Part shown: one piece after another, positions 45,072-48,245 of the stretch | How positions within the stretch are numbered: the stretch's first letter is position 1 | Layout: the number at the start of each line of letters is the position of its first letter | Origin: Sphingorhabdus rigui | GTDB taxonomy: Bacteria > Pseudomonadota > Alphaproteobacteria > Sphingomonadales > Sphingomonadaceae | Assembly: GCF_014196595.1 (NCBI RefSeq) | Contig: NZ_JACIEA010000003.1 | Span: forward strand, 124,001 to 188,000 | DNA: 64,000 nucleotides | Direction of reading: 5' to 3' | Position numbers and translations under genes: made by a program | The notes under the pieces: model-generated | The model's database searches: none | What the model was told of the DNA's origin: nothing | What the model saw: the letters and a program-made list of their open reading frames with translations, nothing else

Positions 45072-45217
45072 CGTGAACCGTTTACGGCACAAGGTGTTGA
45101 AAAATTTGATGTGGCTATCTAAAATACATAAGCATCAAGGATTGCAGGTCACCGGCAAGAAGCTGACACGCACCGTTGCCGGACTGTGCGTTGCGTGACG
45201 GTTCACAAAGAAAGACT

Positions 45218-45691
45218 ATGATTATGGCAAGAGCGATGGGTGGATTACTGGTTTTGTGCGCAATGGTTTCTGCTTGCTCTGATGGTTCGGAAAGCCAAAC
45301 GGAACAGGTTGCGCCTGCAACAAAGCCTGCGGCAATAGCAGCATCAGACGTGACGACCCTCGACGGTACTGCGATAGCCAGCTTCACCGGAAACGCTGAG
45401 AATGGCAAGGCCGTGTTTGCGCAATGCCGCGCGTGCCACGCCACGGATGCAGGCGTAAACATGTCGGGCCCATCGCTACACAATATAATTGGCCGCATGT
45501 CTGGAACTGTGCCTGGCTATAATTACTCGGCCGCTAATGCCGGGGCTAAATTTGTGTGGACGAAAGAAAAGCTGTTTCAACATCTTGAAAAGCCGCAGCG
45601 CGTAATCCCGGGAACAAAAATGATGTTCTCAGGTATACAGGACGCGCAGAAGCGCGCCGATGTTATCGCTTATCTTGAAACGCCGAGCTGA
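45218..45691 (+). CDS. Class I cytochrome c, lipoprotein
   Basis: The protein has 157 residues. The N-terminus ends in the lipobox MVSAC, so it is probably lipidated and tethered to the membrane. A short linker precedes a cytochrome c fold with CRACH (haem), GPSLHNIIGR and PGTKMMF, giving His/Met ligands as in mitochondrial-type cytochrome c or c552. It lies convergent to blh and next to the rhodopsin. It could shuttle electrons to the aa3 oxidase or alcohol dehydrogenase of this window. Start alternatives are ATG 45218 and ATG 45224. Confidence 0.9.
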   Translation: MIMARAMGGLLVLCAMVSACSDGSESQTEQVAPATKPAAIAASDVTTLDGTAIASFTGNAENGKAVFAQCRACHATDAGVNMSGPSLHNIIGRMSGTVPGYNYSAANAGAKFVWTKEKLFQHLEKPQRVIPGTKMMFSGIQDAQKRADVIAYLETPS

Positions 45692-45732: not shown

Positions 45733-46683
45733 CTATAGCGCATTATGATTTTTAGAAGTCATAAGATGCTCAAGGATGAAATGCGGCACCGTCAGCGTTG
45801 ATATTAGAATGAACGCAGACCGGACAATGCCCATTTCCGAAGGAACATCGCCTTGGTACAGGAACATCAAGACGCCTAACCCCAATGAAAGCGCTGACAC
45901 GGCGGCCACAATGGCTGCCTTTTTGAATTTAGAGAGGCCGCCTGTTTCACGCAGTGCGTCCGCCATATGTCGCGGCGAGTGCAGCCCGCAAAAGAAAACG
46001 GCAAATGCCACGAGCGGCGGCAGGAACAGGGCGGCTGTGATGCAGGCCAGCACTTCAAGCGCGCTTTGCGTGTCATCATGCCGGAACGCCCAATAAGCAA
46101 AGACAAGGCTGCCCAGCGCCGCCGGAACTGATGTCGCGCCAAGCAGAGCGGCGATCATTGCGCCGTTTTGGCTTCCCGTTAGCGCGGCAAATATCATGGC
46201 GACATCGTCGGGGCTGGCCAGCGCAGGCAAGGCGACCAATGCCCACCCAACCATCATAGCCAGAAACGGATCAACGCCGCCACGCCAGTCACGGCTGAAA
46301 TGGACTATAGAAATGAGCAGGAATGCAATGAGCGCCAGTTCAGGAAGCTGTAGCCATAAGACGACCATAGCCGCCGCGCAGCCCAGATAGCTGCCGATAA
46401 TCTTGGTCCTACCGGCCCAACCGTTTTGTCCAAAATGGGCGGCAGCGATTTCGACATCCAGCGTGCCGTGGGGAATGCCTGCAAGCACGATAGCCAGAGC
46501 AGCCAGCATATTGGCCTCAACGCTGTCCATGCCGCCTAGAAGGCGGTCCAGGGCAATCAGCAGCAACGTTGCTGCCGGTAACGCAAACAGGCGCAACATT
46601 TTGGACAATGTTGCGCCTGCAGAATGCGGATACAAAATAATATTCATACAGGAATGTACGCCGCCACAGCGGCGCACGTCCAC
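45733..46683 (-). CDS. blh: Brp/Blh family beta-carotene 15,15'-dioxygenase
   Basis: Blh cleaves beta-carotene to two retinal molecules, the chromophore of the rhodopsin. The protein is a 316-residue polytopic membrane protein. The conserved His residues appear in GIPHGTLD (H72), VHFSRDW (H128), GLHSPRH (H235, H239) and PHFILEH (H301, H306). It follows the rhodopsin stop by 16 bases in one operon. The GTG start at 46683 has GGAT 7 bases upstream; ATG 46647 and ATG 46599 are alternatives. Confidence 0.93.
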   Translation of the reverse strand: MDVRRCGGVHSCMNIILYPHSAGATLSKMLRLFALPAATLLLIALDRLLGGMDSVEANMLAALAIVLAGIPHGTLDVEIAAAHFGQNGWAGRTKIIGSYLGCAAAMVVLWLQLPELALIAFLLISIVHFSRDWRGGVDPFLAMMVGWALVALPALASPDDVAMIFAALTGSQNGAMIAALLGATSVPAALGSLVFAYWAFRHDDTQSALEVLACITAALFLPPLVAFAVFFCGLHSPRHMADALRETGGLSKFKKAAIVAAVSALSLGLGVLMFLYQGDVPSEMGIVRSAFILISTLTVPHFILEHLMTSKNHNAL

Positions 46684-46699
46684 TGTTTATCCGAAGGCC

Positions 46700-47446
46700 T
46701 TAGCCATATTCGGCTTGCGACTTGCGCACGGCGATCATGTAGATCAAGATGCCGACGCCTGCCTTTGCGATCAAGTCAGCGATTGTGTAGCCGACTTGTA
46801 CGCCAACGGTTACGTCAGAACCGCTCAGATTGGTGTACGGGATCATGTATACGATCGGGTAGAAACCCCATGATGCGAAGGTCAGCAAGCGTGCTTTCTT
46901 CACCAGTTCGCGTACATTTTCTGGTTGGTTGTTGATGGATGCACCGAGGCCGGCGAAAAGCTGCCACATGATGTAGACAAACGGGATTGCCGACAATGTG
47001 CCCCACAATACGCGGGTTGGAATGTCCGTTGCGATTTCACCTGGGTAACCCAAAATGATCATCAAAGCAGCGGCGCCGCCAAGCTTGAACGACTTCGAGA
47101 CGGTTTCTTCTTGGCTCAAACGCATCACGAGGATGAGTTCGATGAGAAGCAATGGCACGGTGAGCAACCAGTCGACATAGCGATAGGCATCGTTAAATGC
47201 ATAACCGCTTGCGGTCACTATGCCGTCTTTAACGGAATATGCGCCTTCCCAGCTCTCGAAAATACGGAAATAGTGATACGCAGCGATGGCGGTAACCAAG
47301 CCGGAAATGGTGAGCGCTGTCTTGTAGGCTGGGCCCACTTGCGAGCGGCCGAGCCACAAAAACAGCGTTGCTGCTGCCATGGTGGCAAATGTAAATGAGA
47401 ATGCATTATAGACCAAGGAATATTGGCCAAAAGTTAGATTTTCCAC
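46700..47446 (-). CDS. Xanthorhodopsin-like light-driven proton pump
   Basis: This is a seven-helix retinal protein of 248 residues. Helix C reads RYVDWLLTVPLLLIE with D92, T96, E103 (the DTE set of outward proton pumps). L100 at the spectral-tuning site predicts green absorption. K228 in DLIAKAG binds retinal and H58 in AYHYFR is the His partner of the counterion. GQYSLVYN, GYPGE, WGFYPI and VGYTIAD match xanthorhodopsin rather than marine proteorhodopsin. G149 in LWGTLS aligns with the Gly that makes room for a carotenoid antenna. The start is GTG with a GGGGGAG site. Confidence 0.97.
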   Translation of the reverse strand: MENLTFGQYSLVYNAFSFTFATMAAATLFLWLGRSQVGPAYKTALTISGLVTAIAAYHYFRIFESWEGAYSVKDGIVTASGYAFNDAYRYVDWLLTVPLLLIELILVMRLSQEETVSKSFKLGGAAALMIILGYPGEIATDIPTRVLWGTLSAIPFVYIMWQLFAGLGASINNQPENVRELVKKARLLTFASWGFYPIVYMIPYTNLSGSDVTVGVQVGYTIADLIAKAGVGILIYMIAVRKSQAEYG

Positions 47447-47630
47447 GTTATTCTCCCCCTTTGCGACATCATTTCGGATGACGGGCCATTTTTCATAAAC
47501 GCTGACCTGGGGACAACAACCTAACCTTTATACCATGTTTTTGCGATATTGCCCTCGACATCGCGGAACTGGAATATATAATGGTTAACGCTGAAATGCG
47601 CCTATGGGGGTACGCGGGAGGCACTGCAAT
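47447..47630. promoter_or_regulatory. Divergent promoter region between rhodopsin and LOV-HTH genes
   Basis: On the minus strand, TGGTATAAA (47535-47527) resembles an extended -10 for the rhodopsin-blh operon. On the plus strand, TCGACA (47555-47560) and TATAAT (47577-47582) with a 16-base gap resemble a promoter for the LOV gene. ATGGTTAA (47581-47588) is a reverse TTAACCAT element overlapping that -10. No regulator site was proven. Confidence 0.5.
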
Positions 47631-48245
47631 TTGGACGTAGTTGGCCGGTCTAACGAGAAACTAGACGCGCTAATCGCGAATAGCCCGATAGCGTCGGTGA
47701 TCAGCGACCCGCGTCAAAGCGGCAATCCAATCATTGCCTGTAATGCTGCGTTTCTTGAGCTGACGGGCTATGCGGAACATGAAATCATTGGACGGAACTG
47801 CAAATTCTTGGCCGGTCCAGCGACTGAACCATGGTTAACCGACACGATCAGCAATGGCGTTCAACGTCACGCCCCGGTCATGGTCGAAATTTTGAACTAC
47901 AAACGCGATGGCACACCCTTTCGTAATGCAGTGCTGGTTGCGCCGTTGTTTGACGAAGACGGTGAACTTGAGTTCTTTCTTGGTTCGCAAGTGGAAATTG
48001 AGCCCAGCGCGCCAGTGTCTTACGAGAGCCGTCACGCTGCAGCCGCGACGGCGGTCAAGGCATTGTCACGGCGGCAGCGCGAGGTGTTGGCCGAAATGGC
48101 CTTGGGCCATTTGAACAAGCAAATCGCCTTCCGGCTTGGGCTCAGCGAGCAAACGGTCAAAATGCACCGTGCGTTGTTGATGGAGCGGTTGGGCGCGGCC
48201 TCAACTGCCGAAGCCATCCGCATCGCGGTAGAGGCGGGGCTTTAA
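47631..48245 (+). CDS. Blue-light LOV-HTH transcription factor, EL222-like
   Basis: The protein has 204 residues from TTG 47631, which has GGGAGG 9 bases upstream; ATG 47604 (213 residues) is an alternative with no ribosome binding site. The LOV domain holds [20 protein letters not shown], and GRNCKFLAG with the flavin-adduct cysteine (C57), then [13 protein letters not shown] and FLGSQVE. The C-terminal LuxR-type HTH is [32 protein letters not shown]. Order, length and motifs match EL222 of Erythrobacter litoralis, which dimerises and binds DNA in blue light. It is divergent from the rhodopsin operon. Confidence 0.93.

Follow-up and report, generated by a model that had tools for sequence, protein, structure and literature searches.

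An EL222-type LOV-HTH protein as a candidate light-responsive regulator of the xanthorhodopsin-blh operon in Sphingorhabdus rigui and other Alphaproteobacteria

EL222 of Erythrobacter litoralis HTCC2594 (PDB 3p7n, 8a5r), which carries a LOV domain and a LuxR-type helix-turn-helix (HTH), is a much used optogenetic part for which the available portion of the literature gives DNA sequences and no natural operon. Here we describe a rhodopsin operon as a candidate natural target of such proteins. It lies in a 64,000-nucleotide stretch of the Sphingorhabdus rigui genome (hereafter the window; contig NZ_JACIEA010000003.1, positions 124,001 to 188,000), where a gene for a protein with the EL222 domain order is divergent to a xanthorhodopsin-type rhodopsin gene and its partner blh. 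Based on comparison with related genomes, we consider it probable that this EL222-type, one-component LOV-HTH protein controls and light-activates the rhodopsin-blh operon, with an operator that has diverged and a LOV gene that has repeatedly been lost in the clade of the window.

In LuxR-type class II promoters, the operator lies over the -35 element at a fixed distance to the -10; their signal is an acyl-homoserine lactone, whereas that of the window system would be light, perceived through the LOV domain. LdaP-PpsR and LitR/CarH are light receptors controlling phototrophy or other light-dependent genes, but they differ from the window LOV-HTH protein in protein family and targets. The cluster of Sphingomonas sp. 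AAP5 likewise has rhodopsin and blh with an adjoining blue-light protein; in the available part of its description, the rhodopsin absorbs at 544 nm, the neighbor is named a "histidine kinase," with a sensory role suggested for the rhodopsin (Kopejtka et al. 2020; PMC7762795). In the tandem locus of S. glacialis CGMCC 1.8957 (L153), the neighbor combines LOV and GerE and matches no kinase in Pfam, and the AAP5 gene is, by analogy, probably of the same kind. Since the S. glacialis neighbor is a light-sensing transcription factor, rhodopsin is more likely its target than a sensor. The first-pass annotation of the window knew of no published case of this gene pair; the linkage is in fact partly in print, under the kinase name. 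In a limited search of open-licence literature, we found nothing that describes a rhodopsin operon as controlled by EL222-type proteins. Such control could explain why the AAP5 rhodopsin genes were near silent in some laboratory conditions, as the available part of that report has it (PMC7762795).

The window locus comprises the following:

45733..46683, reverse strand: blh, beta-carotene 15,15'-dioxygenase, starting 16 nt after the rhodopsin gene
46700..47446, reverse strand: xanthorhodopsin-type proton-pump rhodopsin, 248 aa, GTG start
47616..47621, forward strand: Shine-Dalgarno GGGAGG of the LOV gene, well placed for the TTG start
47631..48245, forward strand: EL222-type LOV-HTH regulator, 204 aa from TTG 47631, divergent to rhodopsin

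Profile and PDB matches bore out the gene calls and coordinates of the first-pass annotation for all three genes, as well as the DTE-type rhodopsin, the LOV adduct cysteine, and the LuxR-type HTH that it had reported. The LOV-HTH protein matches PAS_9 and GerE, with the HTH at the C terminus directly after the LOV domain, the adduct cysteine in GRNCKF, and no kinase domain. Its match to EL222 (E 7.3e-73, 247.8 bits) far exceeds that to the next best LOV chain (92 bits) and, because the EL222 structure is solved, establishes its fold. By sequence it is a full-length EL222 relative, for which light-driven dimerization and DNA binding are predicted. A longer open reading frame (ORF) from ATG 47604 is possible, but the annotated TTG 47631 looks the better start because 8 of the clade's 13 LOV-bearing sequences retain GGAGG 9 nt before a TTG.

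Rhodopsin-linked LOV-HTH genes and the EL222-type box

The pairing of LOV-HTH and rhodopsin genes is far beyond chance. An evenly drawn family sample of 397 genomes contained rhodopsin in 31 (E 1e-30) and an EL222-type gene in 116 (E 1e-50). The latter occurred in 24 of the 31 rhodopsin genomes versus 92 of the 366 others (Fisher 9e-9, relatedness ignored) and in 16 of the 31 stood within 1.5 kb of rhodopsin. We also compared 80 named loci, the best 80 of 361 rhodopsin loci and thus a selection favoring close relatives of the window. An intact EL222-type LOV-HTH gene lay within 2 kb of rhodopsin in 48 (34 tandem upstream, 12 divergent, and 2 downstream); the remaining 32 comprised 5 LOV fragments, 26 loci with none (L114 included, although it is without upstream sequence), and 1 without a rhodopsin start. 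Carriers include Sphingomonas, Blastomonas, Erythrobacter, Qipengyuania, Brevundimonas, a Caulobacter bin, and a Rhizobiales bin, so that the pairing spans three orders.

The linkage anticipated by the first-pass annotation thus holds across orders, but the divergent layout seen in the window does not: it is confined to one clade, whose LOV proteins group together with 98/95 support in the LOV tree, and the common layout is a tandem of LOV, rhodopsin, and blh. EL222 itself joins the rhodopsin-linked tandem proteins of L184 and L095 (100/88) in that tree, followed by unlinked L094. EL222 was not among the 118 genomes searched for it; the best match there was an 88% relative in G062, where no rhodopsin matched at E 1e-30. 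Three EL222-type genes, in genomes without a rhodopsin match, contain internal stop codons (G181:C1, G354:C75, and G393:C22), so the family seems to decay elsewhere too.

The consensus operator of EL222 is RGNCYWWRGNCY in the available part of PMC10521638. We scored it in the 350 bp upstream of each rhodopsin against shuffled sequences. A perfect 10/10 RGNCYWWRGNCY was present in 17 of the 34 tandem loci (shuffles: mean 0.41, maximum 3), and at least 9 of 10 positions matched in 28 (shuffles: mean 8.6, maximum 16); the full box in these loci reads like TACGGCCTAAAGGCCGTATNG. In 31 of the 34, GTAT comes directly after a box with at least 8 matches; GTAT was required in choosing the sites, and its constancy carries no information. 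These 31 sites all have an A at offset 39 from the box start, preceded by T in 22, although the spacer is variable. This fixed distance from the box to a -10-like element indicates that the box belongs to the promoter.

A position matrix trained on the 31 tandem sites gave 50 matches of at least 18 bits in 884 kb of loci, 40 of them within 350 bp upstream of rhodopsin (31 of these 40 being the training sites themselves). Across 1,820 simulated sequences, the 95th percentile was 8.0 bits and the highest score 17.4. High scores also preceded rhodopsins with the LOV gene downstream (L179, 21.6) or not linked in the sequence examined (L158, 26.7; L144, 26.2; L161, 21.5; L135, 19.6; L138, 18.0), and 11 of the 27 non-tandem loci with neither a divergent nor a fragmentary LOV gene scored at p < 0.005. 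Counts of boxes with at least 9 of 10 matches were not clearly above the shuffle means for LOV-fragment loci (2/5; 1.4) or downstream loci (1/2; 0.7). Upstream of the LOV genes of the 34 tandem loci, no matrix score exceeded 10.1 bits, and we therefore rejected autoregulation through this box there.

Since the box is dyad-symmetric and the LOV stop codon lies just before it, it might instead form an RNA hairpin, such as a LOV terminator, rather than a protein site. We reject this reading as very improbable: the inner positions pair in only 14, 19, and 23 of the 31 sites while the RGNCY pattern is kept, the box is phased to the -10 and precedes rhodopsin even where LOV does not, and no run of four T's occurs within 25 nt after it at any of the 31 sites. 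LOV control of the pump in the tandem relatives is well supported by these sequence patterns.

A candidate diverged operator and repeated LOV loss in the clade of the window

The region between the divergent genes contains these elements:

47492..47497, reverse strand: -10 TATGAA of the rhodopsin promoter, with TA in the same place in 24 clade promoters
47514..47519, reverse strand: weak -35 TTGTTG of the rhodopsin promoter
47517..47538, reverse strand: conserved block ACATGGTATAAAGGTTAGGTTG, which overlaps the -35 and is a candidate for the diverged operator
47523..47534, reverse strand: GGTATAAAGGTT, within the block, fitting the frame RGNNYWWRGNNY
47555..47582, forward strand: LOV gene promoter TCGACA-16-TATAAT, 11/12 consensus matches

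The first-pass annotation had proposed promoters in both directions. That of the LOV gene is near consensus by its sequence (shuffles, mean 0.2 such matches). On the rhodopsin side, the claim needs qualifying, as the -35 is weak and the promoter scanner gave no call for TTGTTG-16-TATGAA, but the TA register of the -10 is kept. A block, ACATGGTATAAAGGWTAGGTTG, is shared in the clade, and in the 24 promoters compared TA lies 24 nt from where its GGTTG begins. The alignment anchor demanded TTG in the -35 and A at +25, leaving only the remaining positions as free evidence; a plain GGTTG anchor without the demand for A, which missed L117, gave the same TA register.

We propose the block around GGTATAAAGGTT as a candidate diverged operator of the LOV protein. 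The distance from GGTATAAAGGTT to the -10 is 37 nt, versus 38 nt for the EL222 box of tandem loci. By itself GGTATAAAGGTT is a weak match, with 8 of 10 consensus positions (also the best fit in the conserved block of any clade member) and a matrix score no higher than chance. The recognition helix SE(K/Q)TVKMHR differs as well: at one position, Gln is found in every one of the 13 divergent LOV proteins but Lys or Arg in the 38 tandem ones, so that the clade departs from EL222 in having Gln for Lys as well as no consensus operator. A strict link between the Lys-to-Gln change and the operator change was rejected, because the unlinked L081 protein (G440) also has Gln, yet G440's rhodopsin promoter (L061) contains a box-like site. 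The canonical box elsewhere in the window genome was likewise discarded: 23 matches with at most 2 mismatches, versus 37 in a reversed control, are attributable to chance, and the ORFs of four loci at box matches (L191, L197, L198, and the window's L203) included no convincing target.

Gene loss within the genus provides a second line of evidence. A rhodopsin match was present in 22 of 37 Sphingorhabdus genomes (the named relatives include S. wooponensis, L115, which is LOV-less, and the cultured S. profundilacus, L128, which shares the divergent layout). A LOV gene of the linked type (at least 77% identity) was found in 10 of the 22 rhodopsin genomes and was absent from all 15 without a rhodopsin match. 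The 12 rhodopsin genomes without it comprise 3 with LOV fragments beside rhodopsin (L003, L006, and L011), 6 with none there, 2 cut by contig ends, and G001, which has a different rhodopsin (79%) and an EL222-type gene elsewhere in its genome. Of the 13 LOV-bearing promoters, 12 retain the left arm of the block, ACATGG, whereas none of the 11 LOV-less ones does (Fisher 1e-5); the consensus -35 TTGACA occurs in 3 of 13 and 11 of 11, respectively (Fisher 1.5e-4). Both tests ignore relatedness, and their force as evidence for LOV control is lessened because the contrasts were picked with the alignment already in view and the genomes are related by descent. These counts omit L114 and L140 (no upstream sequence), duplicate contigs under two locus ids, G001 (L019; other rhodopsin and upstream type), and the rhodopsin fragments L022 and L027. 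The latter two are second, partial rhodopsins at contig ends of bins G017 and G018 with a different upstream region, and perhaps reflect strain mixtures.

A tree built on rhodopsin alone had poor resolution, and we therefore combined rhodopsin with blh and glnA. Inside the clade that carries TTGACA, L121 and L123 keep LOV and ACATGG, while sister lineages lost both, with varied changes; counting losses only, LOV was lost there at least three times. L122, which also has TTGACA, is placed with the window in this joint tree, whereas its LOV protein falls with those of L121 and L123 (100/96). This conflict suggests that the LOV gene and promoter were perhaps exchanged as a unit. The loss pattern fits an activator made dispensable by a good -35, with a repressor or drift as alternatives, and the Sphingorhabdus set amounts to a natural experiment in which a regulator and its promoter part ways.

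In the mechanism that we favor, the LOV-HTH protein, as an EL222-type one-component system, would both sense blue light and regulate transcription of the rhodopsin-blh operon. It would be made from its near-consensus promoter, and blue light would form the cysteine-flavin adduct and free the dimer. The dimer would bind just upstream of, and over, the weak rhodopsin -35 and recruit RNA polymerase in a class-II-type manner, like LuxR, such that pump and retinal would be made in the light. The operator would be the EL222 box in tandem relatives and a diverged element in the window clade, where the LOV gene is inverted; the sub-clade with a consensus -35 has several times lost the LOV gene.

A light effect that is on rather than off seems the better supposition, but the overlap of the block with the -35 could block polymerase, and the LOV protein may bind the rhodopsin promoter to repress it in blue light, the pump then being made in dim light, in green light, or where blue is absent. 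For Escherichia coli, a synthetic promoter was designed with EL222 boxes in the core so that EL222 would repress it, according to the available part of PMC10521638. The strong promoter of LOV-less relatives is also allowed by loss of a repressor. We nevertheless regard repression as unlikely: 10 of the 13 LOV-bearing promoters have a non-consensus -35, and a light-driven pump is useful in light. In addition, the tandem box sits in the place of the -35 at a fixed distance to the -10; like the non-consensus -35, this is the usual sign of activator dependence.

Alternatively, LOV and rhodopsin might travel together as a light island, the clade promoter being no longer LOV responsive and the LOV protein controlling something else or drifting to loss. 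The missing consensus box and the repeated loss of LOV with rhodopsin kept would agree with this. It is also improbable in our view, since an open frame, the adduct cysteine, and the recognition helix are kept in all 13 LOV-bearing members and the left arm decays where LOV is gone. Moreover, the block occurs once in the window genome (at most 3 mismatches; the reversed control also gave 1 match), so no other target with the block is visible.

Several observations weigh against the favored mechanism. Seven of the 31 rhodopsin genomes lack an EL222-type match at E 1e-50 (one of them, G401, carries a fragment at a contig edge), and 92 rhodopsin-less genomes carry the gene. The box is not universal: 16 of the 27 non-tandem loci scored by matrix, divergent and fragment loci aside, gave p above 0.005, and among 25 loci without a linked LOV gene, 12 had at least 9 of 10 matches (shuffles: mean 6.5, maximum 13) and none was perfect. 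The consensus box is not beyond chance in the window rhodopsin promoter or its clade, with at least 9 of 10 positions of RGNCYWWRGNCY matched in 2 of 12 divergent loci (shuffles, 2.9). The TTGACA promoters form one clade (99.1/100) plus L122 in the joint tree. Loss of the LOV gene leaves the rest of the block conserved, and a large part of the block may therefore serve as ordinary promoter sequence or be bound by another factor. Finally, 32 of the 37 Sphingorhabdus genomes carry an unlinked EL222-type gene (48 to 58% identity), a possible regulator.

This unlinked copy (G000 C1:487112-487687 in the window genome) might be the real rhodopsin regulator, alone or with the linked copy. It is found in most LOV-less rhodopsin genomes, where most of the block also persists. 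However, it has a different recognition helix (TVQMHR) and occurs in rhodopsin-less genomes of the genus too, and the left arm decays upon loss of the linked copy; together these points make it a quite remote candidate.

With no recognizable EL222 box in the clade, direct control by the linked LOV protein there rests on the diverged element and the co-loss patterns. The control of the pump suggested by the first-pass annotation therefore finds its support in the linkage and in the phased box of tandem relatives; for the window clade itself, it is plausible.

Second targets and neighboring genes

The second EL222-type gene of the window genome is placed as follows:

L227:4110-4742, equivalent to G000:C1 about 487109-487741 (ORF 487112-487687): unlinked EL222-type gene

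Its TVQMHR helix is shared by 18 of 29 unlinked copies, and the adjacent gene is presumably a UDP-N-acetylglucosamine enolpyruvyl transferase-like gene.

A strict form of the box occurred 13 times in the 397 genomes, whereas its reversed control occurred 3 times. LOV-rhodopsin promoters account for five of the 13, and three lie just after a LOV-HTH gene in rhodopsin-less genomes (G382, G148, and G294). In G382, and at a second box of G308, a fasciclin-domain gene follows the box (L214 and L226 are among the fasciclin loci); the other strict matches in this sample showed no clear target. A box at or shortly upstream of a fasciclin gene is also found near rhodopsin in seven named loci (L154, L173, L175, L176, L184, L185, and L186), at L184:3620-4372 and 3.2 to 4.9 kb after the rhodopsin start in the six others. 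All nine fasciclin frames tested matched PF02469, and a flavin adenine dinucleotide (FAD) oxidoreductase gene follows in several loci (one piece checked). Based on this arrangement, the fasciclin gene is likely a second target of EL222-type regulators, although the window genome has no fasciclin match. A broader account stands, in our estimation, at about even chances: EL222-type proteins may be dedicated switches of xanthorhodopsin operons in several alphaproteobacterial orders, with fasciclin/FAD genes as a second target, while in Sphingorhabdus the switch would have been inverted and would have acquired a new operator, and lineages with a consensus -35 would have discarded the sensor several times, giving a constitutive pump.

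The window rhodopsin matches the Bac_rhodopsin profile (E 2.2e-39), and its best PDB relatives are psXR, Gloeobacter rhodopsin, and xanthorhodopsin. Its RYVDWLLTVPLLLIE supplies D, T, and E plus Leu at the tuning site, which we take to be a proton-pump motif with a Leu tuning site. The same meaning is given for the AAP5 rhodopsin in the available part of PMC7762795. D92, T96, E103, and K228 are invariant among 17 aligned rhodopsins, and the Asp acceptor, Glu donor, and Schiff-base Lys expected of a xanthorhodopsin-type protein are all present. G149 (LWGTLS), also invariant in the 17 sequences, aligns with xanthorhodopsin position 156, the carotenoid fenestration glycine in the accessible part of PMC13043013. 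By its residues, the protein is a xanthorhodopsin-type pump; pumping and a carotenoid antenna are predicted.

The blh product matches the BCD profile (E 2e-39) and scores 159 bits against TIGR03753, above the Brp/Blh cut-off of 95.25. The gene comes next after rhodopsin in most of the 80 named loci, and the two are likely in one operon. Identity to blh outside the divergent clade is only about 25 to 37%, whereas rhodopsins there are about 70 to 84% identical, so blh is fast evolving or was replaced. In the 2.47-Mb window genome, a cytochrome c-550-like gene (window 45176-45691, forward strand) lies directly after a tRNA-Cys gene and is convergent with blh.

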